64,000 bases of DNA from Chloranthus sessilifolius (Eukaryota > Streptophyta > Magnoliopsida > Chloranthales > Chloranthaceae), in contig CM037585.1 of the NCBI GenBank assembly GCA_021018995.1, positions 120,922,331-120,986,330 on the forward strand. The letters run 5' to 3'. Numbering within the stretch: position 1 is the stretch's first letter; the number at the start of each line of letters is the position of its first letter. The position numbers and the translations under genes were made by a program. Below the pieces are notes generated by a model. That model had not been told where the DNA came from. It did not search any database and saw only the letters and a program-made list of their open reading frames with translations. Shown in pieces: positions 525 through 54,620 of this stretch.

Positions 525-2239
525 TGATCTGTGCCGAAATATGATCATATTTCGCACTCTAATAGCAACATTTGGCTATCCGATGAAAGCTATCTGACGG
601 CTGTTGTGCAGTTTTTGTGATTTTAAGTATTTTTGTTCGTTGGATCTTACAGAAACATAAAAGAGCATAAATAAGGACAACATAGGAGCGTTGAACCATG
701 AAGCCAACGGAAACACTGAAATCCGTGGAAGAACTGACTGATCCAACCATTACTAAGAGAATTAAAAATGTCACAGGTCTAACTCAATCGATTGAATTCG
801 AAAAATCAATCGATTGAGGTAATGACAACTGTTCTGCCACCCAAAATCTGAATTTGAAATCAATCGGTTGATTTCAAATTCAAATAAATCCGCCAAAAAT
901 AAGATTTTGAATTCAATCGATTGAATCTTGGAATTCAATCGATTGACCTATATATGGCAAATTTTTAATCCATGCCCTATATAAACAGAGCAGTGTTTAG
1001 GGTTTGGGCATGCTTATTTTTAGGCCTTTTTGGCTAATTTTTAGTTTTTCTTTAGGATTTTTCTCCTTAGTTTTTTTCATTTTATTTTAGCTTTAGTTTT
1101 TTTTTATAGATTGCAATTAGGAATCAAAGCTTTGTAAGGTTTCAAATCTTTTCCTAAAAGAACCGAGCATTTGATAAATTAAAGAACGTGTTTGATGGTT
1201 TTAGATCTGTGTCTTGCTTGTGGATCGGAGATGAACGACTAAAACCATTCATTCAAGGAGGAAGCGACCCTTAGATAAGTAGTTAATTTATTTTTATTCA
1301 ATAATTTCTTTTTATAAATATTGAATCATACGGCTAGTAGTGTGTGCTTAATATATTATCATCGAATGCTCATTTATAGCCGTCGATCTTGGTTATCAGC
1401 GATAATAAAAGAGTCATTCTACCTAGATCTGATCTTGTAGACTGATCTAGAATGCTGTATCTTTGGTGCTTACCGTTGTAATTTCGTATTTAAGATACGT
1501 TATACCTTCGCATGATTCATGCCGTGATTGGATGTGTCATAGTGTTGAGATAGGGTATGTTGGATTAATAATCACATTCTTTTCGAATCTTTTTGCTTGT
1601 AATAAAATGAGGGTTAATATTTGTATTCATTGTCATAATTATTGAATTGTACGATTTCCAGTTTGAGCATGTTATTTTATCATCAAATACTTGTTTATAG
1701 CCGTTAACTGTGTGATTGGCGACAATAAACGAGTTATTCCACCTAGATCTGATCTTGTAGACTGATTTAGAATGTCTTTCGCATGTGAGATACGTTATGT
1801 CTTTCGCATGATTCATGTTGTGATTGGATGCACCATTGTATTTGGATAGGGTATGCCAGATCAATAATCACATTCGTTACGATTCGTTCTTCTTGTAGTT
1901 AAATGAGGGCAAATACTTTGACATTGAAATGTGTGATTGATTGTTGGTAGAAAAATTATAAATTTAGGGTTAGCAGACTCCTTGATCATCTTTTCATCGT
2001 TATTTGGTTATTCACTGTTTTTCCTATATAAGCTTTGTTTAGATATTTTTTATTTGTGTTTGTGTAGTTATTATTTTTTTTATCGTTATAAAAATCTCAC
2101 CTTTGGTACTTCCTTAGGTTCGTTTTACACTTCTAGAAATTAATTAAATTTCACGCTTCCCTGTGGGTTCAACACCCTTGATTTCACTGTGCTACAATAG
2201 ACCTTGTGCACTTGTAAGGGTATAATTTAAAACTGATCA
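525..2239 (+). mobile_element. Solo LTR inside the SAUR pseudogene
   Basis: The element begins TGATCTG and ends ACTGATCA, so it has TG...CA ends, and it is flanked by the 5-bp duplication GATTC (520-524 and 2240-2244). Removing it restores the SAUR reading register. A TATA-like CTATATAAACAGAG lies near 980, directly after an array of CAATCGATTGA palindromes. The 3' end has the 'TCCCTGTGGGTTCAACACCC' text typical of some gypsy-type LTR ends. Two diverged copies of a block of about 120 bp lie at roughly 1358-1500 and 1680-1830. No coding region, primer binding site or second LTR is present. The family assignment (gypsy-type, not chromovirus) is inference. Confidence 0.9.
785..946. repeat. CAATCGATTGA palindrome array in the solo LTR
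   Basis: Four to five copies of CAATCGATTGA, one with a G substitution (CAATCGGTTGA), are spread over about 160 bp. The last copy ends two bases before a CTATATATGG box. Each copy is a perfect palindrome with one CpG at its centre. Confidence 0.85.
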
Positions 2240-2633
2240 GATTCAAATAGGATATGAGAACAACGAATCGCTTCTTCTGTTGCTCTCTAACATAAACAGC
2301 ACAGTGGCCTTTTGGAATTTCTCAGGCGGTACTTGATTGAATTCCACTTAGAGACCATCGGAGAATCTGCTTGGCGTGAACCATCCCAGGCAAACGGATT
2401 CCCATCCTTTTTAAGAAACTTGTAAGTTAGGGACAGCTGAGAAAAAGATCTCAAGCTCATAAGTGAAGTTAGATAAAAAGCCAGAGGATGAAGATTGAAT
2501 GAACTGGCTGTCTCTATGGGCACGTTTGTTTCGTTGTAATATAGACCCTATAAAATCGAAAATGCATGTAATTTTTTGATGACTGGATTACATGCATTAT
2601 TCACTTTGCATGTAATATTTGGGTGTAAAATGA

Positions 2634-2710
2634 TTGTTCTTTTGGGTGTAAAATTTCCTTGTAAAATCTATTTTTTGATGTTTTTTTAACATTACATCCA
2701 AAAGAACAAC
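2634..2710. repeat. Short inverted repeat near the left end of the insertion
   Basis: The arm 'gttcttttgggtgtaa' at about 2636-2651 is the near reverse complement of 'ttacatccaaaagaac' at about 2693-2708. It lies in AT-rich text with repeated 'tgcatgtaat' words. It may be a subterminal region of a MITE-like element. Confidence 0.5.
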
Positions 2711-3028
2711 TTGTGTAATATATTTAGTTTCATGTGCAAAATGGACATTTCCCATTCATCTTTACTAGTATCCGACTTCATCGAGCATGATCAGCAATAG
2801 TGCAACCATGACTTTCCTGATGGTGGCTCTCATGAAGATAGATTTGGCCCAACTGGTCAGTCCTAAAAGTACCTTAAAGAGTTTTATTTAGCAGTTAAAA
2901 ACCGCCGGCAATAAGTTTATTTATTTATTTTTTAAATCCAAAATCTGCTCATATATACCTGTAGGATTTTTTGGGGAGCTTTAAATTGCACTCGATATTT
3001 GAGGTTTTTTCGGGAGCTACAAGTTGCA

Positions 3029-3341
3029 CACGAGATTTGTACTGTGGCACATGAGTTAAAAGGAATGACCTAATATTATTGAAACCCATGCCACATGGAA
3101 CTCCATCTAAGCCATTTGATTTGAATAACATGATGTAAAGATCTTTGACGCCAAAGATTGACACAAAATATGAGTTCTGTGTTGAATCAGATGGTAGAGA
3201 TAACATTTCGTGCCAATTTTTTGCATCAAGGATCTTTATATCATGGCCATCAAATCATACGGCTTAGATGGTGTTCCATGTGGCATGGCTACTTAGTCAT
3301 TCTTTTTAAACGCATGTGCCATGGTACAAATCTTTGAGATG
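3029..3341. mobile_element. Foldback MITE-like element
   Basis: The left arm (about 3029-3141) and right arm (about 3225-3341) are reverse complements of each other over roughly 110 bp with scattered mismatches. They share 'gccacatggaac-ccatctaagcc' and 'tttgta-c-tggcacatg'. The loop is about 85 bp. There is no coding capacity. A related direct duplication ('gggagct..aa.ttgcac.cga.atttg') lies just to the left at 2965-3040. Confidence 0.75.
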
Positions 3342-4263: not shown

Positions 4264-4362
4264 CTAAACATACTCATCTTGTGAGCTAGGATCCCAGCAG
4301 TACTTCAGTTTCCTGTCAATATGCCTCATATCCTTGGCTGTAGGGATTTTGAGTTCCTTGAC
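4264..4362 (-). pseudogene. Terminal exon fragment of an unidentified host gene
   Basis: On the minus strand an acceptor-like 'tttttatgcag' is followed by 32 open codons and a TAG stop at 4264-4266. The peptide contains [11 protein letters not shown] and [15 protein letters not shown], and its composition looks like a real protein, unlike the surrounding text. I do not recognise the gene. The exon is isolated: upstream lies the LTR at 4462, and no joining exon is visible. The next gene-like exon on this strand belongs to DNA polymerase delta (7653-7769), to which this one shows no evident relation. Confidence 0.55.
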
Positions 4363-4796
4363 CTGCATAAAAAGATTGCATCATGCATGTGGTTTTTGAA
4401 TCATGTGTATCAGATTCATTAGACAAATACTAAACTTTTTTATCAAACCCACAATGTTACATGTGACGACCCGACTTTTCCAATCCCTAAGGTATAGGAA
4501 AGGCCGGTTCATCAACTTACTGATTTCTCAATAAGCCGAAATAAACAGAAGCCGGCAGCATAACAAAGATCTAAAACAGAGGCAAAGTAGAGTAAGCAAT
4601 GACAAAAGCTTAATAAAATAATATATATCGCCCTGAGGAACCAGAAAGAACCACCGGTGATGGCCAATCCAACACCTAAAATAGTGGTTCCTAATAATGG
4701 TTCCTCGAGTGATATCAAAAGATAAAACAATGGCCTAGGGCCCAAAATTCAAAGAATAGTTCTAAACAAAAGTACCCAAAAAAGATAATCTAGAAG

Positions 4797-4916
4797 TCAA
4801 GGGAAAAACTCCTCTGCAGGTGTCTCCAATTCCTCCTCAGGAATATAATCGGAGTCCTCCAGATCCTTAGATCCTAGGCCAGTCTTAGCACCTATGACGT
4901 ATAGTCGAGGGTGAGC
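4797..4916 (-). other. Conserved acidic short frame in family A LTR (copy 1)
   Basis: An open segment on the minus strand runs from PRLYVIGAK to a terminal DSDYIPEEELETPAEEFFP and a TGA. The same frame is open in the LTRs at 7822, 12075 and 18655 (one internal stop in the last), with many third-position differences. It follows an acceptor-like AG. Confidence 0.45.
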
Positions 4917-5767
4917 TAACAACAAAGCCCAATAGAGGAAATATGTCTATTTGCATTTCATTATAAGTAAAGGTTTTCAAAGACAGAAATCGAATCAAAT
5001 ATGGTTTTCAAAAGATGCCTTCCAAACTAAATCTCCAGTTCTAATCATGAGGTCAAAACTAATATAATTTATCTGATGTGTTCAAAAACTTCTGAATCAG
5101 CATGCTTCTTGTCTTAAAATTATAATTAAATTTTATCTCCCAAATTACATATAGCATGAGAGCGGACTAAGTCACCGATGGGAAACCCTACTGACCATCG
5201 TCATTCATGAACCCATTTTCTGAAGTGCAACAAGCCCCTACGCTATGAGGGAAACTTGAGCCAAAATAAATACCGTCAACATGGTTGATAGAATCTAGGG
5301 TTTTGTTCGTATGTGCCTCAAATCGAATGCAAATGCTAACTTATATCAAAGCTTGTATACATAACATATTTATTGATTTTTCGGAGTTCTGATTCGAAGT
5401 TCACATTCAAAAATAGCTGAGGTTCTGAAGTTCAAATTTCTAAGTTCTTAGTCATAACAACGTTTTCCAAATTCTTATTTGTGTCATAATTCAGAGTTCT
5501 TATTCATGCTGTGTTAGACAAATATTTCAGAAATTATACTATTTATCAAACAACCTATATTTATAATAGAATGCAAATTAGGTGTAGGGTTCCCCTACCT
5601 CAACAAAGACGGTCCAAAAACAAGCAAAAACAGTCCTCACAAAGGACTCTCTAACTCAAAACCTACAAAGATTAACACTTACAATGTTAATATTGGACCA
5701 AAAGTCAAACTCGAAAGCTTGCCAAGAAAAATCCGACAAAAATTTCAAAGGCCTGAAACAGGGCAAA

Positions 5768-5886
5768 ATTCGACCCTCAAATTCGACCCTCGAATTTCCA
5801 AAAGTTCATCAGGTCTGAAAAATCATATTTCGACTCTCGATTTTCAACTCGATGGTCGAATTCCAAATTTGACCCTCGAATTTCTC
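5768..5886. repeat. TCGA-type palindrome array, family A LTR copy 1
   Basis: Repeated 'TTCGACCCTCGAATTT' words and variants (TTCGACTCTCGA, TGGTCGAATTCC) are packed into about 120 bp. Each is an interrupted palindrome TCGA-NNN-TCGA. On the minus strand the array lies between two donor-like GAG|GTAGG sites at about 6025 and 5598. Confidence 0.7.
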
Positions 5887-6638
5887 CAGGTCTGTGGCTT
5901 TAAATTTGGATCTCCGGACCCTTTTTCTTTCTTTCAACCACAGTTTGTTTATCTAAGATAAAAACTCCATTTTCTACTCTAAGCAAAACATAATTTAAAT
6001 AACTCATGGAGGTTTAAAAGCCTACCTCTTGACGTTTAATCCATCAATCCCATTGCACCAAAATCACGCACCGGAACCAATCTTCAAGGTTTAATAGGCC
6101 AGAGTTTCCTATTCAGTCCATTCAAACCTTTCTTCACATGCACAGGTCAAAACCACATAGAAACATCCTCTCCCCTATCCTTCTCTTCCGATAGCTCAAA
6201 CCGATCAGAAATTTAATACGAAGCTTATCAACGGTTGAGATGGGGAGAGGAGTTTACAATTTCTCAAGATCTAGGATCAAAGGTGAGGGCAAAGGTTGTA
6301 AGTTCTTAATTCAAACGAGAGAGAGAGAGAGAGAAGTGTAACTTCTCTTCAAAGCTCTCTCTTATAATACAAAAATAAAGAACCAAAATATCTAGATTTT
6401 CTATTTGGAATCCTATCCACTTAATTTGCATTTGTTTCCAGTTTTAAACACAAACACCTAACTTATAGTGTAAGTCATTGATTACATGACTTCCACAAGT
6501 CATGAAAAAAAATCCTTTGGCCATTATTCTCATCATACCTTTAACCAAACAAAACCCAAAAAAAATCCCGTAACATTTCTGGACACACTTACCGAGGTAA
6601 ACAAAAACAGGCCAAAATATAAGGGATATTATATTACA

Positions 6639-7652
6639 ACTTACAAATGATAGTGTGGAATAAACTGACAGCAATTTCACATGTCCAAAACATGGCAATG
6701 AGGAAATATATTATGTATTTATTTAATTAATTAAGATTATGGGATTAAATCTTTTCTAACAGTGTATGATTATCAAGCTTCTGAATAGCCTTTTATCTGC
6801 CACATCCTGTCAAGAAGGTGACTTCCGTAGATTTTCAGGGGTCCTGACATCTGTTGAAGTGAATTATGACAGGATTGATGTGGTAAAAGGCCCTTAATAA
6901 GCTTGTTAGTCTTATGATGCCAGTGATACCCCATGAAATTGAGTTTATTAAGGACTCAATGATTTGTGTCACTGTTATGATCTAGACAACACGCTATCTT
7001 TTGGCAGGGTTAACAACCCCTTGCACATATGCCAATTGCTATGGACCATCTTATCTTTTGGCCACCCTTTGGATGGAAAATAGCCCCAAAATCATACCCA
7101 TTTGTTGTTTCCAACCATCCAATCAATGGACTTTTCACGGGAATTGTTGTGAAAGTACAATATAAATCAAGTATCGGAAAAAAAGTCATTATGCACTGCA
7201 CAAAAATTCAGGATGAACAAAGAATATAATGCAAGAGTAAGTTTTATAGGAAATGCTCTGACACAACTCACAACACATACACCATCAAATTAGATTGGCA
7301 TGTACCCAAGCTGAAAGCATGTCAATTTTTTTTTGTATCATGCATAAACATTCATGAGTATTTATTATGTTGTAAACTTTTTTTTTTGGATAGGTTTTAC
7401 CACGAAACTTTTATTGCTTAAATATTTACTGAATGTGTGCTACATTTAAGAAAACGACAGTGTCAATTCAGATGACAAATTTACCTACTAATAGGTCATT
7501 TCCTTGTTAGGATTGAGCGAAGTGACGACTGATAGACAGTTGTCCCTTCTAACTGTTTCAATGCATGTTCATCATAAGAAAATATAATAAAAGGAATGTC
7601 TAAAATAAAAAGAACAGACTCAAACGGTAGAGAAACTCCACTCTATTCTAAC
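6639..7652. other. No gene seen between the LTR and the Pol delta exon
   Basis: This stretch is AT-rich. Two overlapping short open frames around 7010-7229 lie on opposite strands and neither resembles a protein family. It is probably intron or flank of captured gene sequence. Confidence 0.4.
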
Positions 7653-7769
7653 CTTTGGTTCCATTTTATCAAAATTATCTGGGTTTGCCCATAACAGTCC
7701 ACCATATCTCTTCTCGCTGATCAATAGATATGGACAGTAAACCTTCTCGAACTCCAATTTGATTGGCTT
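7653..7769 (-). pseudogene. POLD1: DNA polymerase delta catalytic subunit, exon fragment
   Basis: Thirty-nine codons on the minus strand read [11 protein letters not shown], then [15 protein letters not shown] and [11 protein letters not shown]. This is the palm-domain stretch of B-family DNA polymerase delta in which [10 protein letters not shown] is nearly invariant (animal and plant enzymes have PYLLINKKRYAGL and FDKMD at these positions). The exon is bounded by an AAG|GT donor at its 3' edge and an AG at its 5' edge. No neighbouring Pol delta exon was found, so this is one captured exon and not the working gene. It lies inside the 14.8-kb insertion on the same strand as the carboxypeptidase fragment. 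Differences from the usual residues ([12 protein letters not shown]) suggest relaxed constraint. Confidence 0.82.
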
Positions 7770-8587
7770 CGCAATACAAAAATAAGAAATTCTTTTAGCA
7801 TCAACTATATAGGATAACTTATGTAATATCCCTGATATTTTTTCAAACTATTTTTCGTTTAACTCGGTTAGCGTGCCCGGAAAAGTTACGGGATTTTTTT
7901 CTGGATATTTGGATAGCTAAGGGTATGATGGGAATATTGACCAAAGGATTTTTGTTTCTGACTTGTGGATGTTTTGTTTTTGGTAACTTACATGTTAAGT
8001 CTTGTATATGTGTTTAACACTGAATATTAATGCAATTAAGTAGATAGAGTTGTATTTACAAAAATCTAGATATTTGGTTGTTAGTTAATATTATAAAGAG
8101 AGGGACTTGCAAGAGAAGTTACACTTCTCTCTCTCTCTCTCTCTCTCTCGTTTGAATCTGAGTTTGCAACCCTTGACATTGCCTTTGATCTTAGATCTTG
8201 TGAGCTTGAGAATTACTCTCCCCATCTCAACCATTGAATAGACTAGTATTTGAATTCTAATCGGTTTGAGCTATTGAAAGAGAAGAGAGATAGGGGAGAG
8301 TGGCAGGTTTTGTGTGAATTTGGTTGTTGAAGTAGAGGCAACCTTGTGATGGACTGATTGGAGGTTCTAACCTGTTAAGCTTTGGAGATTAGTTCCGGTG
8401 CGTGACTTTGGTGCAACGGGATTGATGGGTTAAACGTTAAGAGGTAAGCATTTAAACCTCCTTGTGTTATTAGAATTTATGTTTTGTTTAGAGTAGAAAA
8501 TGGTGTATTTAAATAAGTTAAACAAACTGTGGTTGAAGGATGAAAAGGGTCCAAAGATCCAAAATTTAACAAACACAGAACTAAAGA

Positions 8588-8670
8588 AATTCGAGGGACG
8601 ATTTTCAAACCGAGGGTCGAATTTTGAAATTTTAAGCCTGATGAGATTTTTGAAATTCGAGGATCGAATT
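8588..8670. repeat. TCGA-type palindrome array, family A LTR copy 2
   Basis: This array holds 'ATTCGAGGGACGATTTT', 'CGAGGGTCGAATTTT' and 'ATTCGAGGATCGAATT', that is, TCGA-NNN-TCGA interrupted palindromes. It is shorter than in the paired LTR copy. It lies between the donor-like sites at 8444 and 8838. Confidence 0.7.
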
Positions 8671-9520
8671 GTGCCCTGTTTCAGGCCTTTGAAATTTTGT
8701 CAGATTTTTCCTTGGCAAGCTTTCGGGTTTGACTTTTGGTCCTATATTAACACTGAGAGTGTTAATCTTTTTAGGTTTTGAATTTGAGAGTCCTTTGTGA
8801 GGATTGCTTTTGATTGTTTGGAACCGTTTTTGTTGAGGTAGGGGAACCCTACACTTTATTTACATTCTATTTATAAGTAGGGACTGTTTTGATGAGGAGC
8901 ATAATTTTTGGAAATATTTGTTTAAACACAGCATGAATAAGAACTTGAAATTATGACACAAATCAGAAAATTGGAAAACTTTATTATGACTAAGAACTTT
9001 GAAATTTGAACTTCAGAACGTCAGTTATTTTTGAATGTGAACTTCGAATCAGAACTCCGAAAAATCAGTAAATATGTTATGAATATAAGCTTTGATATAA
9101 GTTAGCATTTGCATTCGATTTGAGGTACATATGAACGAAATCCTAGATTCTACCAACCATGTGGACGGTGTTTGTTTTGGTGCAAGTTTCCCTCATAGCG
9201 TAGGGGCTTGTTGCTCTTAAGAAAATGGGTTCATGAACGACGATGGTCAGTAGGGTTTCCCATCGGTAACGTAGTCTGCTCTCATGCTATATGTAATTTG
9301 GGAGATAAAATTAAGTTATAATTTTAAGACAAGAAGCATGCTAATTCAGAAGATTTTGAACACATCAGATGAATGTTATTAATTTTGACTCATGATTAGA
9401 ACTGGAGATTTAGTTTGCAAGGCATCTTTTGAAAACTATATTTGATCTGATTTCTGTCTTTGAAAACCTTTACTTATAATGAAATGCAAATAGACATGTT
9501 TCCTCTATTGGGCTTTGTTG

Positions 9521-9643
9521 TTAGCTTACCCTCGACTATACGTCATAGGTGCTAAGACTGACCTAGGGTCTGAGGATCTGGAGGACTCCGATTATATTCC
9601 TGAGGAGGAATTGGATACACCTGCAGAGGAGTTTTTCCCTTGA
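9521..9643 (+). other. Conserved acidic short frame in family A LTR (copy 2)
   Basis: The frame runs 41 codons to a TGA at 9641-9643, through PRLYVIGAK and DSDYIPEEELD to AEEFFP. An acceptor-like 'ttgttag' ends at 9524. The equivalent segments in the LTRs at 12075 and 18655 differ mainly at third codon positions. Confidence 0.45.
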
Positions 9644-10064
9644 TTCTAGATTACATCTTTTTGGTACTTTTGTTTAGAATTATTCTTTGAATATTGGGCC
9701 CTAGGACATTGTTTTGTCTTTTTGATATTACTCGAGGAACCATTATTAGGAACCACTATTTTAGATGTTGGATTGGCCATCACCGGTGGTTCTTCCTGGT
9801 TCCTCAGGGTGATATATATTATTTTGTTAAGCTTTTGTCATTGCTTACTCTACTTTGCCTCTGTTTTAGATCTTTGTTATGCTGTCGGCTTTTGTTTGTT
9901 TCGACTTATTGAGAAATCAATAAGTTGATGAACCGGCCTTTCCTATACCTTAGGGATTGGAAAAGTCGGGTCGTCACAACTTAGTAGTTATTTTACCATC
10001 AACATAAGGATATAAGAAGAAACAATAACACTGTCACTCAAAAACAATAATTACTGTTAATGCT

Positions 10065-12074: not shown

Positions 12075-12586
12075 TGTCACAACCCCAGATTCTTGGGATG
12101 AGTGCACGTCATGCATTATATATAGGTATGTGTGTTTCACAAGGAGACCAAAACGAACCATAGACACTATGTGTGTACGTGAGAAACACACTAATATTTC
12201 CCTAATTTATATGTATAAAAGTGAAAGAGAGAGGAGAGAAGAGCCCTTGCGTAACTCTATTCTAACCTAAATAGAGAGAAGGAGAATATAGAGAGAAAGA
12301 AGAGAAGAGCCTAGTAAAGAACTAGGGTTTCGTTGGGACTTAAATCAGCAGAAGAGTTGGAGAAAAGGCTGGAGGAGGAACCTTGGAGGCATGTTAGCCT
12401 AGTAGAATTTCGAATCTTAAATCAAACTTGCGCGAGACTCATCGTCAGAGGTATGTTAAAGGCATGATAGATGCTTAGGCATGTTTTAAATAATAGGAAG
12501 AATGTTGGTAGAATGTTTTTAAAGATGTTAAGGTTTGAATGCAGGGTGAAATTGTGTTCTCGATCTGATCGAGGAGCAAAAATCAT

Positions 12587-12800
12587 CGCTCCTCGCTCGA
12601 GCGAGGATGAATAGGAAAAATATAGCTCTGGGCTCGCTCGAGCGGTCCCCAAAAACTAAGGGGAAGCTCGCTCGAGCGAGGTCCCCAGTAATGCTTCAGT
12701 GGCTCGATTTAACCGCTCGAGCGACCTCGATTTAACCGCTCGAGCGAGGTCAGGTGACCGCTCGAGCGAGGTCAAGTGACCGCTCGAGCGAGGTCTGGTG
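12587..12800. repeat. CTCGCTCGAGCGAG palindrome array, family B LTR
   Basis: About seven copies of GCTCGAGC, most extended to CTCGCTCGAGCGAG, lie in about 210 bp. The last four are tandem units of roughly 20 bp ending in 'gaggtcaNgtgac'. The same palindrome recurs in the copia LTR at 23635-24296. Confidence 0.88.
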
Positions 12801-13760
12801 ACCACTCAGTTCTTGGAATTTTCGAATACAGGAAACTTGGGGTTTGTACACCCCAATGGTTCTAGTGACCTTTCTAAGCCTATGCTAAATTGAAATGTAG
12901 GTTTGACGCATGATCATGAAGTATAAACCTCTACGAGAAGGCGTGCTTTGAAATTCGTCGAGGTAGGGAATATTCTTGAAACATGTGCATTGTTTCGTGA
13001 AATTCATATATGTAGTGTAATCCATTAAATAGTCAAATACTACATGATCCTCATGAAAAAGGGTGTGCGAGTGAGTTTACAACGTGAAAGTCTTGAGGTC
13101 CCCAGGGGACGAAAAATCATATAGTTAAAACAAAGAAGGATGTGATGGGAATAAGGGGCATCCCAGGGATGCAGATGAAAACTAACAGAGAAACGTAAGT
13201 AATGTGATAAGGCCTAACGTAATATAATTAGCACAATCACGGTGAATAACTATATGTAGAGCACATTTGATATTTTTATTATTTAAGGTTTGATTAGAAT
13301 ACCCCACCGACGTGGCGGGATACCCACGACTGACTCGGCAGGATATCCGTGAGCGGTACAGCGGCAGATCCGTACTTTCATAGTACATCCCAGGGATGTA
13401 GATCTAAAAATAGACCCCGCCACCTATGAGAAAGGGGCTTGGGCAGTATTCCCAGGGGATACATATAATAACTGTCTAGTTAGACGACGATGGTGGGTAT
13501 TCCATCGGGGCTCGATGCTATATTGCTCGGGGACTACTTAAGTTAAGATTTAAGTGATTAGGCCAAATTCACAACTAAACTAATAAGGAGATTAAACAAA
13601 ACCATGCTAAGTAACAGTCAAAATCATTAGTTTATTTTCAGTTATTTCAATTGTTGTCCATAAGTGATTACTCGATAATTTTATGCTTGTTAAACTGCTG
13701 ACATATGTGTGGAGGTCAATCTATATGTTCTTTTTGTTTCCCTACGGAGCTAGGATGTAG

Positions 13761-13892
13761 CTCACCCCCCTTAGACTATACGTCGCAGGTCCAGGACTAG
13801 TGGCAGCAAAGACTTCTGGAGAAGCTGATCCAAGGGTTTCGGATTTCGTACCCACAGAAGAGTCAGAACCTCCTCCTGAGGAATTCTTCTAG
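13761..13892 (+). other. Conserved acidic short frame in family B LTR
   Basis: After an acceptor-like 'gatgtag', 43 codons run through PLRLYVAGPG and SDFVPTEESEPPPEEFF to a TAG at 13890-13892. The frame matches families A and C, with different codons for the same residues. Confidence 0.45.
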
Positions 13893-14241
13893 GAAACCCA
13901 CTGCATACTTTGAGAGTGAGTTGAGAGTATTAGGTACGGCTTGGTATGTCAAGCCTCTTTATTTCGAATGTTTTTAAATACCGTTTCTTTGACAAAACGT
14001 CTAGGATGAACTATTATTACTAATGGTTTGGGTAAGTCCTTATGTCCATGAATTGGCATGGGACAAGGACTGCCTTGTGATATCTTGATTATTTTTTTGA
14101 GTTTTCATTTAGAGTAGCTACGTGTGCCTCAATTATAGTTTGGGCTTGTATATATTAATGTCTTGTAAGGAACCCAGGGCACGGCCTTGAAAGTCGTGCT
14201 GATGGCACGGATTTCGGGGTTTTGAAATTCGGGCTGTCACA

Positions 14242-17802: not shown

Positions 17803-18654
17803 GTTCCTTACGTAGCTACAATTTATTGAAGCGGACCCTACCGGCTCCAGGTCCCGCACCAGCAGTGGCACCACCACCACCCCCACCACCACAGCAGGAC
17901 CCACCCGTGGGTGGGGCACACTCAGTTGATCCACCAGTGGAGGGGACACCCTCCCGTACCACTGCCTCACCTATGCCCCCAGCACGCTCTGCGGCAGCTA
18001 CACCCACTTCTTCATATCACCGGCGAGCTGCTCGCCAGGCTCCGACAATAGAGGACGTGTTGGCCAGGATGGAGGCCAACAACGAGCGGATGAACCGACG
18101 AATGGACTTTTTAATGTTTCATATACTTCGCTACATCTATCCGTTGGACTACCAGCAGTGCCTCACGTAGGAGGCGGAGTGGACAGCAGGACGGACTGCA
18201 TTCCATACGGGTGTCATTTTCCATGCGATTTACAACCGACGACGATCGGCTCGGCGCCCAAAGAGCAAAGCGACCGGTGAGACGGTCACCCACTGAGATG
18301 ACCCAACCGCCGCTAGTCCAACCAGAGCCACCAGTCCAGTCAGAGCCTGCCCCTGCATCAGATCATCCAGGGGAGGGGACGGCGTGAGACTGAGACGAGG
18401 ATGTTTTTGTGTGACTGATTTTGCGAGATTTGATGTAACTGAAAAGATGTAATTCAACAAGTTGTAAATTTTGGAAATTAATGAAATATACAAAAAAAAT
18501 TTGTGTATGTGCTTGAATTAATTATGTTTACTTGCTCTTTATAATGCATCTGTCAACTTTTTCGTGTTTGGTTACGTGTTACCCCAGTGTGTGGGGTACC
18601 CAAGCGAACACCCTTGGGTTATTTCGAGGATGAAAATTCCTAAGGTGGGGAGAA
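17803..18654 (+). mobile_element. 3' internal region of a gypsy-type element with polypurine tract
   Basis: Upstream of the LTR at 18655 lies a C-rich coding-like segment (about 17835-18170) encoding a Pro-rich stretch and then EDVLARMEANNERMNRRMD, a hydrophilic helix like the C-terminal part of gag-like plant transposon proteins. The segment ends with 'tcgaggatgaaaattcctaaggtggggagaa', the usual text and polypurine tract just before a chromovirus 3' LTR. No protease, reverse transcriptase or integrase is present, so this is a non-autonomous or deleted element. The 5' LTR is lost at the junction near 17802. Confidence 0.7.
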
Positions 18655-19229
18655 TGTAATATCTCAAAAAATTGACCATTTGACTTTGACCTCGGGATCC
18701 ATGCCCGATTGATCGTAGGTTGACCAAGCGATGGTCAAACTTTGAATTCAAGGAGTGATGAACTGATGTGATGCAAATGGGACTCAAGTGTAGTGAGTGT
18801 TATTGGTTTAGAGTCACATACACCTATCTCTGGTGTATGTGTTTAACACACAAGCAGGAGAGAGAATAAAAGGATTTTAATAACCCTAGTTCCCTTTTGT
18901 TGGTTGTTGAAGAGAAAGTTAAGAAGAGAGAGAGAGAGTAAAGAGGAGTTATGGAAGAGGAGTTAATGCAAATCAAGAGGAGATTAGAGCATTGATTTTC
19001 GGATTCAAAGCGATTGGGATCATTGAAGCAAGTGATGGAACTCTAGCCATCAAACCCAACAAATCAATCCCTTGAAGGGATTATTGAGGTGAGTTTTAAG
19101 TAAAGTGAATGCATATATTGTAGACAAGTTTAATTCAGTCAAGTAGGGTTAAATGGGTAGATTAAAGGCATATAAAAGAAAGGAGAAAGATTTGGAAGAA
19201 CAGTCCAGAAGGGGGCTGAATCCGGCCAA

Positions 19230-19656
19230 ATCGATTAATCGAAATTAGAGTTCAATTAATCAATTTTGGCCTGGAAGTTGAAGAGTCATGAAAGCCCGAT
19301 TTCGATTAATCGAATTATATTTTGATTAATCGATTTGGATTTCGATTAGTCGATTTGGAAATCGACTAATCGACTGGGTACCTCCAGTGGCTGGAGAAAG
19401 GAGACCTGGGGAAATCGACTAATCGAGTTGGGAAATCGATTAATCGATTTTAGATTTCGATTAATCGATTTGGGATCGACTAATCAATTTCAGACTTTCG
19501 ACCACTCGATTTGAGAATCGACTTTATTATGTTAGAGACTTCGATTAATTGATTTGGGATCGATTAATCGAATTTGAATCTCGATTAATCGATTTTGATA
19601 ATTGATTAATCGATTTGGGTTTCGATTAATCGATTTTGGGAATCGATTAATCGACT
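19230..19656. repeat. CGATTAATCGA palindrome array, family C LTR
   Basis: More than fifteen copies of CGATTAATCGA or one-base variants (CGACTAATCGA, CGATTAGTCGA) lie in 430 bp, spaced 12-25 bp apart. The array is in the presumed transcribed leader part of the LTR, between donor-like sites at 19089 and 19834. The same palindrome fills 54023-54620 in a different element. Confidence 0.9.
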
Positions 19657-20699
19657 TTGGCAGTTTTATTTAACTTTATAATTTTCCTTTGAAATTCATG
19701 GAGGGTCTAGGACCTCCTTCATTACATCTTTAGTGATGTATTACATGTGTTATGATGTACCATAGGTGGTACGTGTGAAAGCGAGCACAAGGAGCCGCGT
19801 GGGACCTTGATGCTTGGACCTTCAGAGAATTGAGGTAAGGAACACCTTGAACATGTACTTTAATTTCAAGAGCATGTATGTAGTGATATAATTATCAAAT
19901 TTAAAGTTTTTTTAACTTACGAAAAGCTTTGTGAAAATGGGTATGTATGTAACACCAAGAATGTGAAAAAGGCATCGATGTGATGCAAGTAATTAAGATC
20001 AAGCAATCTAATGAGAATGAGACATCCCCAGGGGATGAGAAAGTAATAAAGGCATCAGGTGTGATGCGAGTATGTATATATCCCAGGGATGTATACATAT
20101 GATTGAATAATTACTGTTGAGGCCTAATTGATATAAGATAGCACACTTACACGGTGAACAATTATATGTAAAGCACATATTATTTTTGTTATTTGAGGTT
20201 TAATAGGATACCCCACCGACGTGGCGGGATACCCACGACTGACGCGATAGGATATTCGTGACCGGTACGACGGCCAATCCGTATACCAGTGTGGAGATTT
20301 ATCCATAACAATAAGCACATCCCAGGGATGTTGAGTGATATTTAAGCCCGCTGCCTAGTGAGAAAGGGGCTTGGGTAGTATTCTCAGGGAATACATTATT
20401 TACAACTGTCTATTTAGACGACGATGAAGGGTATCTCATCGGGGCTCGATGCTATATTGCTCGGGGATTACTTAAGTTGAAGATTTAAATTTTGCTTTAG
20501 GCCTGTTCAGTTTCATTCATGATAAGTCAACAGTAAAATAAGACATGCTAATTACCAATAAACTTGAATGCAATTCATCAGCTTTTAAACTATTTTCTAG
20601 CAAATGCATAGGCACATCATGCTTAGAATATCATGGAATATATGTGAGTCTTAATTTATATGTTCGTTGTGTTTGTTCCCTATTGAGGTAGGATGTAGC

Positions 20700-20828
20700 T
20701 CACCCTTTAGACTATACGTCGCAGGTCCATTGATAGCAGCTATTGAGGCTTTGGGAGACGTAGATCAGGATGATTCGGATTACGTGCCTGGAGACTAGTT
20801 AGAGCCTCCACCCGAGGACTTCTTCTAG
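20700..20828 (+). other. Conserved acidic short frame in family C LTR
   Basis: The frame runs FRLYVAGPL, then DDSDYVPGD, an in-frame TAG at 20796-20798, then LEPPPEDFF and a final TAG at 20826-20828. Apart from the internal stop it matches the frame in families A and B. Confidence 0.4.
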
Positions 20829-21195
20829 GAGACTCTGTTGTGTACTTTGATAGAGAGTCAGTTTTGATAACAGATTATATAGCTTGGTATGTCAAGCCTT
20901 TATTTTTGTCAAATAATGTAATTAAATTGGATTATTCTTTTGGCGAACCATCTGGGGTGATCTGTTTATCACTGATGGTTCGGGTCGGTTCTCTGTTCAT
21001 GCAGTGGCATAAAAGTAGAACTGTCTTTTGCGTATGCCAGTTGGGCATATTAACCGTTTCCGCTTTATGAGATTATTTGCTTTATTTATTTAATTATGCT
21101 TGTTATACCAATGTTCCGTGCATAGTTTTGGGGCGCGGTCTGGAGGACCGTACTGATAGCATGAGTTTCGGGGTGCCGAAATTCGGGCTGTCACA

Positions 21196-23634: not shown

Positions 23635-24296
23635 TGTTAGGAATTCCCCACTCTAACGAACTCTCTCATCGCAATAAATGCGGAAAAATAAAAAGATGCA
23701 AGAGAACAATCACACAACACAAAGATTACGTGGTTCACCCAATCGAGGGCTACGTCCACGGGAGTATATGCACTATTTATAAATATTTACAACGCACACA
23801 CTCTCTTCTCTCTCGTACACTTTCAAACAAGATTAAACATGATCTTCCATAGCCAAACCGCCGTAAAATCCAAGGACGTTGTCCTTCAAAAAATAGAGAA
23901 GAGATCTGTCGGAACATAGTAACAATTCCGGCATAAGAACGACTTCAATCAAATCTTCAATCCCCAAGCAATTCTTCAATACCTTGCCTCTCCAAAGTAT
24001 TTACCCAAGTTTTTCTCTCTTGAAAAACTCTCTAATTCGTCCATCAGTTTTCCCTTTATATAGGAGACTCGAATCCTACTTCTAACCCCAGAGACACTGC
24101 TCAAAAACTGAACTCTACAAGTAACTCGACGTCTGCAGGTTGCTCAAGCGACTAAAACCTGAGAATTTTCCCTTACATACGTGCCCAAGTCACTCGAGCG
24201 AGAACCAAACTCGCTCGAGCGACTTTTCCCCAAAAGTTTGCTCCATGTTAGTGCTCACCTCGCTTGAGCGAGCCAACGTTGGGGTTAAACCTAACA
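23635..24296 (-). mobile_element. Copia 5' LTR
   Basis: On the minus strand it starts TGTTAGGTTTAACCCC and ends GGGGAATTCCTAACA, so it has short inverted TGTTAG ends. It is 662 bp long. A TATA-like CCTATATAAAGGG lies near 24060, downstream of a palindrome array. The flanking bases cannot be tested for a target duplication because the other LTR is missing. Confidence 0.88.
24142..24274. repeat. CTCGCTCGAGCGAG palindrome set in the copia LTR
   Basis: Four or five copies or variants: GTCGCTTGAGC, CTCGCTCGAGTGA, GTCGCTCGAGCGAG, CTCGCTCAAGCGAG. They lie just upstream of the TATA-like box. The motif is the same as in the gypsy-type LTR at 12075-14241, although the two LTRs are otherwise unrelated. 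Confidence 0.82.
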
Positions 24297-27117: not shown

Positions 27118-28036
27118 GTGTGGATCTAATTAGCTCTAAGTTGGAAATTTCAGCAGAGGCTTCCTAAGGGTTGGATCTAATGCTAGCTTTTCTTTCTACC
27201 GGACTACTTAGGAATCGAAGCAAGTGGGCCAGCCCCACCGTGCTTGACTGCTCTACGAGATTTTTAGAAGAGAGTTCCAGTTCTAAGAGCCAGGTACTTA
27301 GAGTGCAACTCTACTATATTTCGAAATCTCAGAGCCAACCTCGAGTTTTCTAGACAGAATAAGCAAAATTCGTGTGTTGAATGGGAGGGCAAGGGCCCTA
27401 TTGATAGTACTCGGTGATTTATATGCTAGGAGACCAGCATATAATCCAGAATTATACGCTGGAAGTCCGACGTATAATCCAAAATATATGCTGGGAGTCC
27501 AGCGTATAATTCGGTGCGGCCACGGGTTGAATTGGTCAAATGACTGGATGACCGGATCGGTCTGGAAGGGAAGAGTCTCGAGAAGGACTTTCCTTGATTA
27601 TACGCAGTCAGGATAGCGTATAATCCGGGAGTCGGAGTGGTTTGAGAGAGAGAAACCTAATCCAAAGCGGACTGATTATACGTTGTTGCTCCAGTGTATA
27701 ATTGAATTATATGCTGGGATTCCAGCGTATAATCCGGGGTAGTTCGGTCAGTGAGAGGGGAGTCCCAGTACGTCGTAGGGATGATTATACGTATTAGTTC
27801 CTGCGTATAATCGATTATACGCCTGGAAATAGACGTATAATCCACGAAAAATATTGGGTTGAGTCAGGTCCAATTATACGCTGGGAATCCAGCGTATAAT
27901 CCATTATAGGCTGAGTTCCCAAAGCTAAGTTTTTAAGATTTTGAGAAAAGGTTGGATTTTCCAGAAATCGTGGGCATGGTCAATGGTTGACTTAACATTT
28001 TGTATACTCTGAGGGGGCGAAAAAGGGGTGTCTACA
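27118..28036 (+). mobile_element. LTR-like insertion carrying a hairpin array
   Basis: The SAUR promoter text to the left stops near 27117. On the right, SAUR coding text resumes abruptly at 28037 after 'aaaaaggggtgtctaca', a typical LTR 3' end (GGGGTGTCTACA). The 5' end cannot be fixed and no target duplication is clear, so the insert is probably a truncated LTR or one involved in a deletion. No coding sequence is present. Its middle holds nine hairpin units. Confidence 0.6.
27416..27903. repeat. Nine imperfect hairpins ATTATACGCTGG-N-CCAGCGTATAAT
   Basis: Each unit is an inverted repeat of about 12 bp with a 3-7 base loop. They start near 27417, 27450, 27483, 27596, 27669, 27704, 27782, 27813 and 27872. 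The best copies match at nearly every arm position (27483-27512, 27872-27902). Others show compensated or single changes in an arm. Confidence 0.85.
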
Positions 28037-30889: not shown

Positions 30890-31186
30890 TCATGAGTCAT
30901 TCAGACAAGAAGTTAAGTTTAAGAAGGTATCTACTTTGCATGGAATTGTTAGACCTCCCATATGATGATCAAATCCAAACTCTTCTTCAACCCTATCAAG
31001 CAAGGTCTGAAATAATGGATGATTCAAATAGGATATGGGAACAACGAATCGCTTCTTCTGTTGCTCTCCAACATAAACAGCACAGTGGCCTTTTGGAATT
31101 TCTCTGGCGGTACTTGATTGAATTCCACTTAGAGACCGTCGGAGAATCTGCTTAGCGTGAACCATCCCAGGCAAACGGATTCCCAT
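30890..31186 (-). CDS. SAUR family auxin-responsive protein
   Basis: Intact, intronless, 98 codons. I chose the ATG at 31184-31186 because all paralogs here start MGIRLPGM or a close variant, and because the TATA box lies 110 bp upstream; the open frame extends 60 codons further upstream only through 5' UTR and promoter. The N-terminal [15 protein letters not shown] is a short basic region. The SAUR core follows: [42 protein letters not shown] and GGLTIPC. The usual [15 protein letters not shown] is altered to [15 protein letters not shown]. Characterised SAURs act in auxin-linked growth, in part by inhibiting PP2C.D phosphatases; a specific role for this copy is not known. It is divergently paired with 32227-32523. 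Confidence 0.95.
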
Positions 31187-38990: not shown

Positions 38991-39559
38991 AAATCTTTCA
39001 CTTAATGTACCACAACTCAAACAAATATTCACAGACCAGAAACAGAAATCAGACATATAAATAATAAAGTTTACACTTAAACTAGCACAACTAACTTATC
39101 TCTGTTGGGAATTATTTTATAACTAATAGCACGAATACCAAGTGCTTTCCTCAACTAAGCTTCTAGTAGTTGAGCTCAGATGTCAGATGCCAAAACAGAT
39201 ATCAGATAACAGAGCAGATAACAGATTTACGACCTGATCAGAGTCTTAAAATTGTACCATTCGGACTCATAAGCACCATTTCATCGCAATTCAGATATTA
39301 TGGTATTCAAGTCCAGTGCAGAAATAGCATAAAATATCAGAAAATATGATTTTATAGTGCACACATACTTCGGTCTCGGAAATGGTATACACTACCCATC
39401 AATACTTAGGTCGGAAAACAGAAATCTATAGCTTCGATCTCGAAAATGGTCAGGTAGAACAGGTATGACAGATTCAGGTCACACTTGTTGACACGATCCG
39501 ACAGATTCAGGTCATACTTGTTTACACATTCTGGTATAACAAGTCTACCAGATTTAGGT

Positions 39560-39935
39560 TCCAAACATCTACATAATCAGATCTAATAGAGTCAAGTAAC
39601 AAATATCTATGCTTTCAAGTACAACAAATTCAGATAATAAATATTTACACTTTTAGGTGTAACAGACTCAGATAACAACTATTTACACTTTCAGGTATAA
39701 CCAATTCAAGTAACAAAGATTTACACTTTCAGGTGTCACCGATTCAAGTAACAAATATTTACACTTTCAAGTCTAAAAGACTTAGATAACAAATATTTAC
39801 ACTTTCAGGTGTAACAGACTCAGATAATAAATATTTACACTTTCAGGTATTACCGATTCAAGTAACAAATATTTACACTTTCAGGTGCAAAAGACTCAGA
39901 TAACAAATATCCACACATTCAGGTATAACTGATAC
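39560..39935. repeat. 38-bp tandem repeat inside the 3.3-kb LTR
   Basis: About nine units of 'aacagactcagataacaaat' + 'atttacactttcaggtgt' alternate with a variant having 'accgattcaagtaac'. The plus-strand LTR at 51826 ends within the same repeat (53085-53198). Confidence 0.88.
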
Positions 39936-40399
39936 GGCTAATTTTCGATTGTATAGTGTTCATAAAACTAATATATCAGACCATATGAAGCCCTTCATAT
40001 GCCTAGAGGGTACAACACCAACACATAAATCCAGCTATCAACACCTAAATACAGCATTAATACGTCAATGAATGTATAAACTGTAATATTGCTTTTGGTT
40101 TTCAATTTTCATTAGTACCACAAGTATTACAATTTCAAATCTAGGCTAACAACATACACATATTCCACGACTAAACTACAAGCCATCTTATACAAGTATA
40201 ATAGGTGCAAATTTCTACTAGCACATAGATGCAAATTTCTACTAGCACATAGATGTATAATAAAAAATACACACGATGTAACAAAGTCAGAATTTTAAGA
40301 ATTACCGACGTACAGCCTGAATTGGGGTTTAAACAAAATATATTAGAATAGATACATGCCTCAAAAGAAACGATCAACTATAGGGTTAGTCGTCGTGAA

Positions 40400-51825: not shown

Positions 51826-53198
51826 TGTAAGGACTCAATTTGAAACCAGGTCAGATAGTTAACTGACGGCCCGTAGTTCGATTCTACGAGATCTCATTTG
51901 TTTATTTGTCTATTTACTGACTGATATTAACGTACAACAAACGGGTGGGTCGCATCCACTGAGAAGCATGACGTTTTTACATGACACAAATTTAAATAGT
52001 AAAATGTGTTAAAACCCATTGACTTTGTTCGATCTGTCCATGGAGATTAATTTTGGGCATGCGTGTTATGTGACACCACGACCAATTTGATGGGTTCTGT
52101 GCCATGTGATCGATACTCACACTAATCGTATGATGGTAAGGCTATAGTCTCAGGATCCATTGGATGAAAGATTGAAATGAAATTAGATTTTAGATCTGGG
52201 GTCCTACTAGTACGTTGGTGGGTGAAAATAGAAGGACCCAATCTATTGTCCCATGTAACGTGGTAAAGTCGCTACGGCTATATCATATAATATTTTAGCA
52301 TTAATAATATCATATAATAATATCATATAAGACTATTAAAGCCTAACTAGCTAATAATATAATAATATAATAGCCTAGCTACTAATATAATACTATACTA
52401 GGAGATGTTTATGGAGGTTTAGAGAAAGGGCGAGACTATTGGGGGCGTGGGTTTGTAATGACTACGAGACAAGAAAATGAAAAGAAGATAAAGGAAAAGA
52501 AAGAGAGCCTAAAGAAAAAAGATAAAAAGAAAAAGAGAGAGGGACCCTGAGAGAGAGGGAACCCTAGAAAGAGAAAGGGGTCTAGAGAGAGAAAGTGGTA
52601 GTTCACGACGATGACGAACCCTATATTTGCTTGAGCTTCTTAAGGCCTAGTACATATTCTAATACATTTTGCTTAAACCCCGATTTAGGTTATAGATATA
52701 TTGATTTATCAGTTAGAAATCGATATTTGCTAGAAATCTGATTTTGCTATGTCGTATGTATTTTGGATTATACATCTATGTGCTAGTGAAAATTTACGCC
52801 TGGTATACCTATATAAGATGACTTGTATTTTAGTCGTGGAATATGTGTATGTTGTTAGCCTGGATCTGAGATTTTAATACTTGTAGTAGTAATGAAACTT
52901 GAAAATCAAAAGCAATTTTGCAGTTTATATATTCATTGACATATTAATGCTGGATTTAGGTGTTGATAGCTAGATTGATGTGTTGATATTATATGCTCTG
53001 GGGCATATGAAGGGCATCATGTGGTCTGATATGCTAATTTTATAAACACAGTACAATCGAAAATCAGTCGAATCAGTTATACCTGAATGTGTAAATAGTT
53101 GCTATCTAAGTCTTTTATACTTAATAGCGTAACTATTTGTTACCTGAATCGGTGACACCTGAAAGTGTAAATATTTGTAATCTAAGTCTGTTACACCT
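51826..53198 (+). mobile_element. 3' LTR, truncated, same family as the 3.3-kb solo LTR
   Basis: It begins TGTAAGGACTCAATTTGAAACC after a polypurine tract and runs parallel to the reverse complement of 41200 to about 39850. That includes the TA-rich run (52290-52400), the GA-rich leader (52480-52600) and the first 38-bp units. It is cut at 53198 within the 38-bp repeat, where a minus-strand gene fragment begins. Confidence 0.82.
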
Positions 53199-53906
53199 GC
53201 CGTTGGTCATCCGAGTCATAATCTCCTCAAATCTCACCGTCTCCTCAAAGGGTGGGAAGAGGGTGGTCTCAGGCACAAAGTCCAAATAGCACTCTAGTAT
53301 CTCATGGATGTGGCGACAAGTGAAGGTGTAGTCACGACCCTCAATCTTGGTCGTATCTACGTCATCTCTCAGCCCATCCTCCAAGCCCTGGTAAAGCAGA
53401 AGGACCAATCTAGGGTAGTAGGACCCGCGGATTGGTTTCCAAAGGTTGCCGAGGCTGGCCTTAACTAGGTAGTTTCGAGCCCATTGGGTCTCACCCGCCA
53501 CATCGGGGTTAGTAAACAATTCCACGTCAATAATGTACTCGGTTTCGAAGGTCATTGCCACCCACCATTCGTTTGGTTGGAGTACGTTGACAGGCGGTGG
53601 TGGAGTTGGTGAAGACTCGCGCGAAGACGCGCTCGTCGAACCGGATGTGGTATTCGATGTCGATGGTGATGGAGTCCTCACGGGTGATGGGGTAGGTGGT
53701 GGTGGTGCGGCGTTCTTACGCCGGGCCGGGAGCTTAGACGTTGCCTTCTTCGAAGACAAACATGTTTTAGGCGGCATTTTGTGACAAATATTGCAAAAAC
53801 TAAGGTTTTTGTAGCTTGAAACGGAAAGAAAGTTGGAATCTAGGGTTTTTACCTTAGGTTTCAATCCAAATGTAAGTGGTTTCGATCTGAAATCAATCCG
53901 AAACAC
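53199..53906 (-). pseudogene. Gag-like 'putative plant transposon protein', 5' part
   Basis: The most likely start is the ATG near 53777 (MPPKTCLSSKKA), just behind a leader. A Pro/Ser-rich stretch follows, then a folded domain with NEWWVAMTFETEYIIDVELF, LGNLWKPIRGSYYPRLVLL, and GRDYTFTCRHIHEILECYL. The pattern resembles the plant transposon protein domain found in non-autonomous LTR elements; I am not certain of the family. An open extension to 53906 may be leader. The coding sequence is cut at 53199 by the LTR fragment, and the remaining C-terminal residues of the open frame are LTR repeat read in reverse. Confidence 0.6.
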
Positions 53907-54022
53907 CGAAACCTAGCTCTCCAATTCGCTCGAAGGAGAAGATAGCAAGGCACACAAGAGCCAAAATCAATTTGATTTCGAATGGGGAGAAATCCCCCTC
54001 GATTTACATATATAGGTCCCGG
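53907..54022 (-). promoter_or_regulatory. TATA box and leader of the gag-like gene
   Basis: On the minus strand ACCTATATATGTAAATC (about 54018-54002) follows the palindrome array and precedes a leader of about 100-230 bp. The same order, palindromes then GACCTATATATG, occurs in the solo LTR at 525-2239. Confidence 0.5.
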
Positions 54023-54620
54023 TTCGATTAATCGATTTCCAAAATCGATTAATCGAGTTTCAAAACTAGGTTCAGCCGCGCGAAATTGATTAATAGATTT
54101 CCAAAATCGATTAATCGAAACTCAAAATTATTTCGATTAATCGAAATCGTGGTCATTTAAAATTTTAACTTTTCGAGCTCATTGGTGCGAGCCAGTCGAT
54201 TAATCGAATTTCACTTTGATTAATCGAAATCCCATAATCGATTAATCGAATTTCACTTCGATTAATCGAAATCGTGAAGTTCTTCAAATTTTTCCCAAAA
54301 TTCTCAAGTGACTCGATTAGTCGAACCTCCAGATCGATTAATCGAAATCCCAAATCGATTAATCGAATTCTTCTTCGATTAATTGAAATCGTTTAAATTC
54401 TTCAAATTTTTCTAAAATTCTTAAGTTACTCGATTAATCGAATCTCCAGATCGATTAATTGAATCGAAAATCGATTAATCGAAACCTAATTCGATTAATC
54501 GAACTTTCACTTCTTTAATTTCCTGACTCTTCATTAAATTTCTACTCACTGGTGCATGCCAGTCGACTAATCGACCAAAATTGATTCATCGAAATCTCAA
54601 ATCGATTAATCGATTAATCG
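54023..54620. repeat. CGATTAATCGA palindrome array upstream of the gag-like gene
   Basis: About twenty-five copies of CGATTAATCGA or one-base variants lie in 600 bp, separated by short 'aattc' and 'aaatc' spacers and two diverged 'ttcttcaaatttttcccaaaattctcaagt' units. It is the same palindrome as in the family C LTR (19230-19656). Confidence 0.9.

Follow-up and report, generated by a model that had tools for sequence, protein, structure and literature searches.

What reads the dense runs of short self-complementary words that recur in the retrotransposons of Chloranthus sessilifolius, and at which promoters? The question is raised by a stretch of 64,000 nucleotides of this genome (contig CM037585.1, positions 120,922,331 to 120,986,330; hereafter the window), in which eight array regions were analysed (Table 1). 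Many arrays belong to Ty3/gypsy elements with a chromodomain, which we take to be Tekay-like, and there they occupy two places: the long terminal repeat (LTR), and a site just 5′ of the TATA box of an accessory open reading frame (ORF) that lies between pol and the 3′ LTR. We consider that the arrays are probably clustered sites of a sequence-specific dimeric DNA-binding protein and would act as promoter-proximal enhancers of the retrotransposons. A dimeric factor would bind the palindromic words, arrayed at a spacing of about two helical turns, and once bound would activate from its promoter-proximal position. In Tekay-like elements the LTR array would be joined by a second one upstream of the TATA box of a separate accessory-ORF promoter, so that one factor could control genomic RNA and accessory protein together. 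A factor of this kind at both promoters is suggested by the exactness and dyad symmetry of the words, by their spacing of two turns and their place close to TATA boxes, and by the way the two arrays change in parallel. A dimeric factor had been one of several roles offered in the first-pass annotation of this DNA, and by word conservation, the 21-bp spacing and the match of LTR and internal words it appears to fit best.

That the palindrome arrays are real and follow a theme common to several families, as that annotation had it, is borne out by the window itself, where the own word of every array region exceeds each of 200 dinucleotide-preserving shuffles (Table 1). Since the words were picked after inspection, this excess speaks to their recurrence, and palindromy was examined separately. 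Perfect palindromes of at least 10 bp are in clear excess over dinucleotide shuffles in arrays A, C, D and G (5, 7, 8 and 17 against means of 0.5, 0.3, 1.2 and 2.2), while the excess in E is weak (2 against a mean of 0.14, with a shuffle maximum of 2). Array F passes only as gapped hairpins (10 against 1.2, maximum 7), and B1 and B2, where the recurring unit is a gapped word, contain no such palindrome and fail the test. The expectation that palindrome density would surpass that of shuffled sequence therefore stands for A, C, D and G, stands in these limited forms for F and E, and falls for B1 and B2.

The words are also abundant well beyond the window. Counted as exact matches over the 2.17-Gb assembly, TCGATTAATCGA has 241,617 copies against 55 for its reversed spelling, and CTCGCTCGAGCGAG has 11,123 against 1. 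A random sample of twenty 10-kb stretches, taken at fixed steps along three contigs (200 kb; loci outside the window carry L numbers), held 196 perfect palindromes of at least 16 bp, a TA-rich satellite in L017 included, against 2-8 in five Markov controls. A repeated palindromic core was present in 10 of the 20 stretches, and arrays of the kind discussed here, with satellite and weak cases omitted, in eight (L008, L009, L013, L014, L017, L020, L023 and L024). Discarded as satellite-like or weak were the TA-rich arrays of L017, CACATGTG and GCGCGC in L021, and CAGATCTG in L018 (3 copies). A repeated-word scan returned 74 scan windows with a repeated 10-mer, 30 scored as palindromic and 44 not; an incomplete sorting of the 44 attributes many to the same palindromic arrays read out of register, to satellites or to hairpin arms, and some are truly non-palindromic. 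We also surveyed LTR array slots using as anchor an 18-mer, GAGCTAGGATGTAGCTCA, which lies downstream of the LTR array, contains no array word and has 9,313 plus 9,176 genome matches against 0 for the reversed pattern. Forty slots were taken as the first places among the matches listed on contig C1, one per close pair, with the exact 18-mer biasing the set to the commonest family. An array was present in 38, its word being TCGATTAATCGA in 32, TCGACTAGTCGA in two (L043 and L055, one subfamily, 92% alike) and one each TCGATCAATCGA-like (L051), of CTCGAG type (L049), TCGATCGA (L063) and GATCGATC (L067).

The first-pass annotation had placed the arrays in LTRs or LTR-like sequences. Array G is in no LTR: it follows pol and precedes the accessory ORF, with a TATA box close downstream of it. 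The pol pieces of element G and of L009 contain a Tf2-1-like SH3 domain and match the chromodomain weakly (E 0.0012 and 0.00018, respectively, both below Pfam's own cut-off), which marks them as Ty3/gypsy chromoviruses. In L009, L014 and L024 the order is pol (outside the fetched stretch in L024), array, TATA box, leader, accessory ORF, purine-rich tract, LTR start, TATA-like box, splice-donor-like site and second array; L023 with L027, and G, follow the same order over the extent covered. A TATA box stands immediately 3′ of the internal array in G, L009, L014, L023/L027, L024, L068, L071, L074, L076 and L077. The Tekay-like LTR array lies some 300-500 bp downstream of the TATA-like box, and an array downstream of such a motif is found in the LTRs of B2, C, D, L009, L014 and L024. 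LTRs with different words keep the same landmark order, though some landmarks were not found in some LTRs. Between the TATA-like box and the array, a splice-donor-like stretch, AGGTRNGN, is present in LTRs B2, C, D, L008, L014, L017 and L024, so the LTR array may sit in a leader intron.

The accessory ORF is open over 474 codons in L024, where its hit to Pfam PF20167 ('putative plant transposon protein') is a sub-threshold one (8.6e-7). Its fragment at 53196..53777 of the window gave no Pfam match of its own, and a single-sequence structure prediction of the window fragment reached a mean predicted local distance difference test score (pLDDT) of 41. Pieces related to this ORF were also noted elsewhere. 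L017 has dense ACTAGTATATACTAGT-type palindromes at 6400-7980 and 8790-9020 that flank a piece 33% identical to it, and L018 (2195-2899) and L022 (7737-8180) hold pieces 28-30% identical, with no arrays of the present kind nearby.

The two arrays of one element share their word wherever both were found. Both arrays were found in 9 of 15 elements examined: four from the random sample (L009, L024, L014 and L023/L027) and five of the nine slot elements in which the internal site was sought (L043/L068, L067/L071, L028/L074, L051/L076 and L047/L077). At the expected internal place, L070, L072 and L075 have neither integrase nor ORF; L073 retains gag and reverse transcriptase, with integrase, ORF and array all absent. 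In L008 the interval between the two LTR arrays contains nothing recognisable. In L017 an integrase piece lies some 240 bp from the LTR, and an internal array is absent. In all nine elements with both arrays, the word of the LTR array is also that of the internal one, and five words are involved. A permutation of the word labels gave 1.3e-4, a value from which kinship is not removed; as four of the elements are D-type and two L014-type, a fairer tally of the evidence is about four word changes.

The most instructive of these is the L043 element. Its LTR array contains TCGACTAGTCGA 8 times, TCGACTAATCGA 6 times, TCGATTAATCGA 3 times and TCGATTAGTCGA twice, and its internal array contains the same words 7, 6, 0 and 1 times, plus two decayed TCGACTAG sites, so that at least one half-site is changed in 16/16 internal and 16/19 LTR sites. 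Outside the words, the internal array is 56-57% identical to its positional counterparts in L009, L074 and G (67-90 gap columns), against 50% to its own LTR array (182 gap columns); the LTR-internal pairs of L009 and L024 are 45-50% identical. This contrast, though modest, suggests that the word was changed site by site in both arrays. Half-site variants confined to single subfamilies of this one genome include TCGATT, TCGACT and TCGATC.

Conservation and spacing single out the words themselves. Among six D-type LTRs, with word columns defined by a third sequence, identity is 91.6% in the words, 69.2% in the spacers and 64.4 and 71.8% in the flanks. Of 516 gaps of up to 30 bp between neighbouring dyads (32 slot loci included, sites less than 10 bp apart merged), 496 measure 19-23 bp, a count that includes gaps common to copies of one family by descent. 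The medians are 20-22 in all eight word classes, among them the CTCGAG and CAATCGATTG carriers, and unrelated LTRs are part of the set. The common spacing of about 21 bp is two helical turns, and longer gaps in the D-type set gather around 43, 50-53 and 63-65 bp, which are approximate multiples of 10.5. An alternative is that the words, being dense in CpG, recruit DNA methylation or keep it away, or else position nucleosomes, the exact word being of little weight. CpG observed/expected is indeed raised in the eight array regions (1.12-2.95, against 0.59 in the window), and the palindromic RM boxes of Sireviruses form CpG islands (PMC2829016). Such a role leaves the exact words and the match between arrays unexplained, and within the word it is the outer CpG letters that are weakest (71-73%), while the non-CpG letters are 87-100% identical; we regard it as very unlikely.

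Several observations weigh against a dimeric factor at two promoters. The Tekay-like LTR arrays lie 3′ of the TATA-like box, opposite to the other carriers; TATA boxes and splice donors were called by motif; and the Tekay-like name is presumed from LTR and chromodomain features. Two of the 40 LTR slots (L030 and L037) have no array, and LTR arrays stand without an internal one in L008, L017 and the L029/L073 element. Palindromy is not absolute, for the word of L051/L076, TCGATCAATCGA, is slightly asymmetric, and L010 (9450-9580) and L027 (about 1590-2000) hold arrays of the non-palindromic TTCGCAAAG in direct and inverted copies. The L027 array lies upstream of a TATA-like box. Within words, compensatory double changes are not in excess (3 observed, 3.18 expected for D-type pair 2/11). 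The idea that compensatory change maintains the palindrome thus survives in part: both half-sites changed in both arrays of one subfamily, while double changes within words stay at expectation and another subfamily's word departs from symmetry.

The modest contrast of 57% to 50% identity in the L043 element belongs with these points, as do the spacers of paired arrays, which are more alike than shuffled ones (0.45 against 0.30 in L009 and 0.46 against 0.31 in L024, above all 500 shuffles; just below the shuffle maximum in L014 and L023), so that shared origin or copying is possible in part. Taken further, the arrays would be a side effect of tandem slippage and of one array converting another, with no selection on the word, an explanation that can also draw on the 20-22 and 40-41 bp periods found by tandem-repeat detection and on gap patterns that recur between copies by descent. 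It is an unlikely one. The words are far better conserved than the spacers, paired arrays align better to positional counterparts than to each other and yet share a word, recurrent words arising from slippage alone should rarely be palindromic, and the spacing is the same in unrelated LTRs.

A further alternative is that the arrays act as RNA, the self-complementary words pairing to bring about dimerisation, packaging or small-RNA production. In maize, Sirevirus palindromes coincide with small RNAs (PMC10760457), and the hairpin arrays F and L016 fold at -194 against -138 and -134 against -96 kcal/mol, relative to mononucleotide shuffles, which as composition-only shuffles are a weak control for folding energies. 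The position of the arrays speaks otherwise. In A, E and L001-L004 the array lies at most about 160 bp upstream of the TATA box and so, by the TATA reading, outside the 5′ leader; a leader location is possible in Tekay-like LTRs, whose second array, however, stands at an internal promoter. For these reasons the RNA dimerisation proposed in the first-pass annotation is not supported. Nor does an RNA role give any reason for a second array at an internal promoter, or for a spacing near two turns of B-DNA regardless of the word, and the loopless words cannot form local hairpins alone. We judge it highly improbable for the arrays at large. L016 (1230-1660) and the window at 27405-28036 share the terminal sequence GGGGTGTCTACA, and each contains hairpin arrays; those of L016 have a constant loop, ATTGTTTC, on variable stems, a possible RNA-type array that differs from the loopless ones. 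At 8936-9060, L020 has strong hairpins of the word TTGCCGCGGCAACC (-90 against -49 kcal/mol, mononucleotide shuffles).

Repeated and partly palindromic promoter motifs are familiar in plant LTRs from the U3 repeat boxes of Tnt1 and Tto1, which resemble the present arrays in this. To our knowledge, those boxes are in far fewer copies, and we know of no second internal array. The closest published relatives are the palindromic RM boxes, found in the LTRs of 13 Sireviruses and also 5′ of the env-like gene in those that possess one (Bousios et al., 2010; PMC2829016). The first-pass annotation knew of no standard LTR feature that covers the arrays; RM boxes do, and one of them, ACAATCGATTGT of Tnd-1, is close to the word of array A (PMC2829016). 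In both systems a short palindromic CpG-bearing word is present in many copies and varies between elements, and besides the LTR cluster there is another one, 5′ of an additional ORF that follows pol (here with the same word, 9/9). RM boxes are termed Sirevirus-specific, and Sireviruses are Ty1/copia elements (PMC2829016), whereas the carriers here are mainly Ty3/gypsy chromoviruses (G and L009, with the Tf2-1-like SH3 domain and chromodomain); element E is copia, and element A lacks a coding part. The RM-box core is CGG-CCG, with Tnd-1 the published exception, in contrast to the TCGA-type words here, and the Tekay-like elements differ further in an extra ORF that is PF20167-like and, judged by the TATA-like motif, in having the LTR array downstream of it, where RM-box clusters stand upstream of the TATA box. 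In a maize survey, copia LTRs are reported to show a structure peak, and Ty3 elements in general none that is obvious (PMC10760457).

Other systems share single aspects. VANDAL elements with their VANC proteins also have family-specific arrays of short motifs in non-coding parts, differing between relatives; however, they are DNA transposons, their motif YAGTATTAY is non-palindromic, and the reader protein has been demonstrated, where here a reader is inferred from sequence (PMC5735166). Tekay chromoviruses are reported to have a chromodomain integrase and accessory ORFs of unknown function, as here, although the reported ORFs lie 5′ of gag-pol and the present one lies 3′ of pol; PF20167 is reported in a 3′ accessory ORF of Athila, the Grande accessory gene has its own promoter, and the extracts mention no palindrome array in Tekay accessory-ORF elements (PMC11728184, PMC7264820, PMC11963269). 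No Ty3/gypsy palindrome arrays of the present kind were found in the literature searched. Arrays of this kind are thus already known; new, as far as searched, are the Ty3/gypsy carrier, other words, the rule of about 21-bp spacing and the concerted change of words.

If a dimeric factor reads the arrays, its source may differ between words. The arrays had been described as family-specific, which does not hold strictly for their words: the CTCGAG word is common to C (a gypsy-type LTR), E (a copia LTR), L001/L003 and L004, and sequence comparison finds no LTR sequence shared between C and L001/L003 or L004. Conversely, the LTRs of C and D have their 3′ halves in common (13210-14059 and 20120-21010, 71% identity) and different array words. 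A word common to gypsy and copia LTRs suggests host factors for some words. For the Tekay-like elements, the change of half-sites from subfamily to subfamily in a single genome suggests that the factor co-evolves and is perhaps encoded by the element. As a special case of the dimeric factor, it is conceivable, though doubtful, that the element encodes it, most simply in the accessory ORF, the product binding its own promoter and the LTR and co-evolving with the word. An array does stand at the accessory ORF's own promoter, word changes restricted to subfamilies of one genome are hard to explain by a common host factor, and VANC offers a precedent for element-encoded proteins that read family-specific motif arrays (PMC5735166). 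On the other side, CTCGAG stands in unrelated gypsy and copia LTRs alike, which favours host factors in its case, LTR arrays also occur in elements with no visible accessory ORF, and the ORF has no recognised DNA-binding domain, with PF20167 as its only, sub-threshold match. Tentatively, the accessory protein could be a fast-evolving, family-specific DNA-binding regulator or anti-silencer whose dimer would read a half-site (TCGATT, TCGACT and so on) in arrays spaced by two helical turns at both of the element's own promoters and co-evolve with the words, an LTR-retrotransposon counterpart of VANC. If true, both superfamilies of plant LTR retrotransposons, with the Sireviruses on the copia side, would have arrived convergently at a control circuit of two promoters.

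Table 1. Elements, arrays and related features of the window. Own-word counts are given for the region in brackets, followed by the mean and maximum of the shuffles.
Feature	Position	Strand	Own-word sites against shuffles	Remarks
Element A, exact solo LTR (TG...CA)	525..2239	+		5-bp target duplication GATTC at 520-524 and 2240-2244; flanks compared with an empty homologue near 31024
Array A, word TCAATCGATTGA, 5 sites	784..946	+	5 (780-950); mean 0.11, max 1	CTATAT boxes then at 948 and 977
Element B1, LTR, inverted partner of B2	4462..6634	-		84.7% identity to 9978-7821
Array B1, gapped word ATTCGA-NNN-TCGAAT, 5 decayed sites	5768..5881	-	5 (5760-5890); mean 0.35, max 3	not significant as perfect palindromes
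Element B2, LTR	7822..9978	+		TATA-like box ~8090, splice-donor-like AGGTAAGC ~8441
Array B2, gapped word ATTCGA-NNN-TCGAAT, 3 decayed sites	8589..8669	+	3 (8585-8675); mean 0.34, max 2	
Element C, gypsy-type LTR	12075..14241	+		TATA-like box ~12214; 3′ half homologous to D
Array C, word CTCGCTCGAGCGAG, 7 sites	12592..12792	+	7 (12580-12805); mean 0.16, max 2	
Tail of element D accessory ORF	17811..18212	+		66% identity to residues 318-460 of L024 accessory ORF
Element D, 3′ LTR after purine-rich tract	18655..21195	+		TATA-like box ~18865, splice-donor-like GAGGTGAGT ~19086
Array D, word TCGATTAATCGA, 16 sites within 2 mismatches	19231..19654	+	16 (19225-19660); mean 0.41, max 3	
Element E, copia LTR (TGTTAGG...CCTAACA by reading)	23635..24296	-		TATA box ~24063; gag_pre-integrase domain 22062-22535, minus strand
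Array E, word CTCGCTCGAGCGAG, 3 sites within 3 mismatches	24189..24272	-	3 (24125-24285); mean 0.01, max 1	upstream of TATA box
Array F, gapped hairpins, arms GATTATACGC / GCGTATAATC	27410..27910	.	7 and 9, arms (27410-27910); means 0.28 and 0.41, max 2 and 3	near an LTR-like 3′ end (TGTCTACA)
Start of accessory ORF (PF20167-like by homology), far end cut off	53196..53777	-		70% identity to residues 1-195 of L024 accessory ORF
Array G, word TCGATTAATCGA, 21 sites within 2 mismatches, between pol and accessory ORF	54024..54621	-	21 (54020-54625); mean 0.71, max 4	CTATATATG box follows ~54015
Element G, Ty3/gypsy chromovirus pieces: reverse transcriptase, RNase H, integrase SH3, chromodomain	54891..57391	-		

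Among the remaining features of the window, B1 and B2 are two LTRs of one family in inverted orientation, and LTR C had no match when compared with plasmid records. A 38-bp tandem repeat is present at 39502-39995 and 53070-53199, as inverted partner copies about 13 kb apart. Several ORFs in both orientations lie between 30890 and 48670, apparently a cluster of SAUR auxin-response genes, and element A and its neighbours lie within decayed copies of this ORF cluster.

Arrays published as a peculiarity of Sireviruses are thus prominent in Ty3/gypsy elements of one plant genome, in which a single 12-mer has more than 240,000 exact copies. From arrays that match and change together, one would expect a separate sequence-reading factor for each family, and such arrays offer a straightforward way to learn whether the element or its host encodes it. 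They bear on how retrotransposon promoters may stay active under silencing and on how binding specificity evolves.

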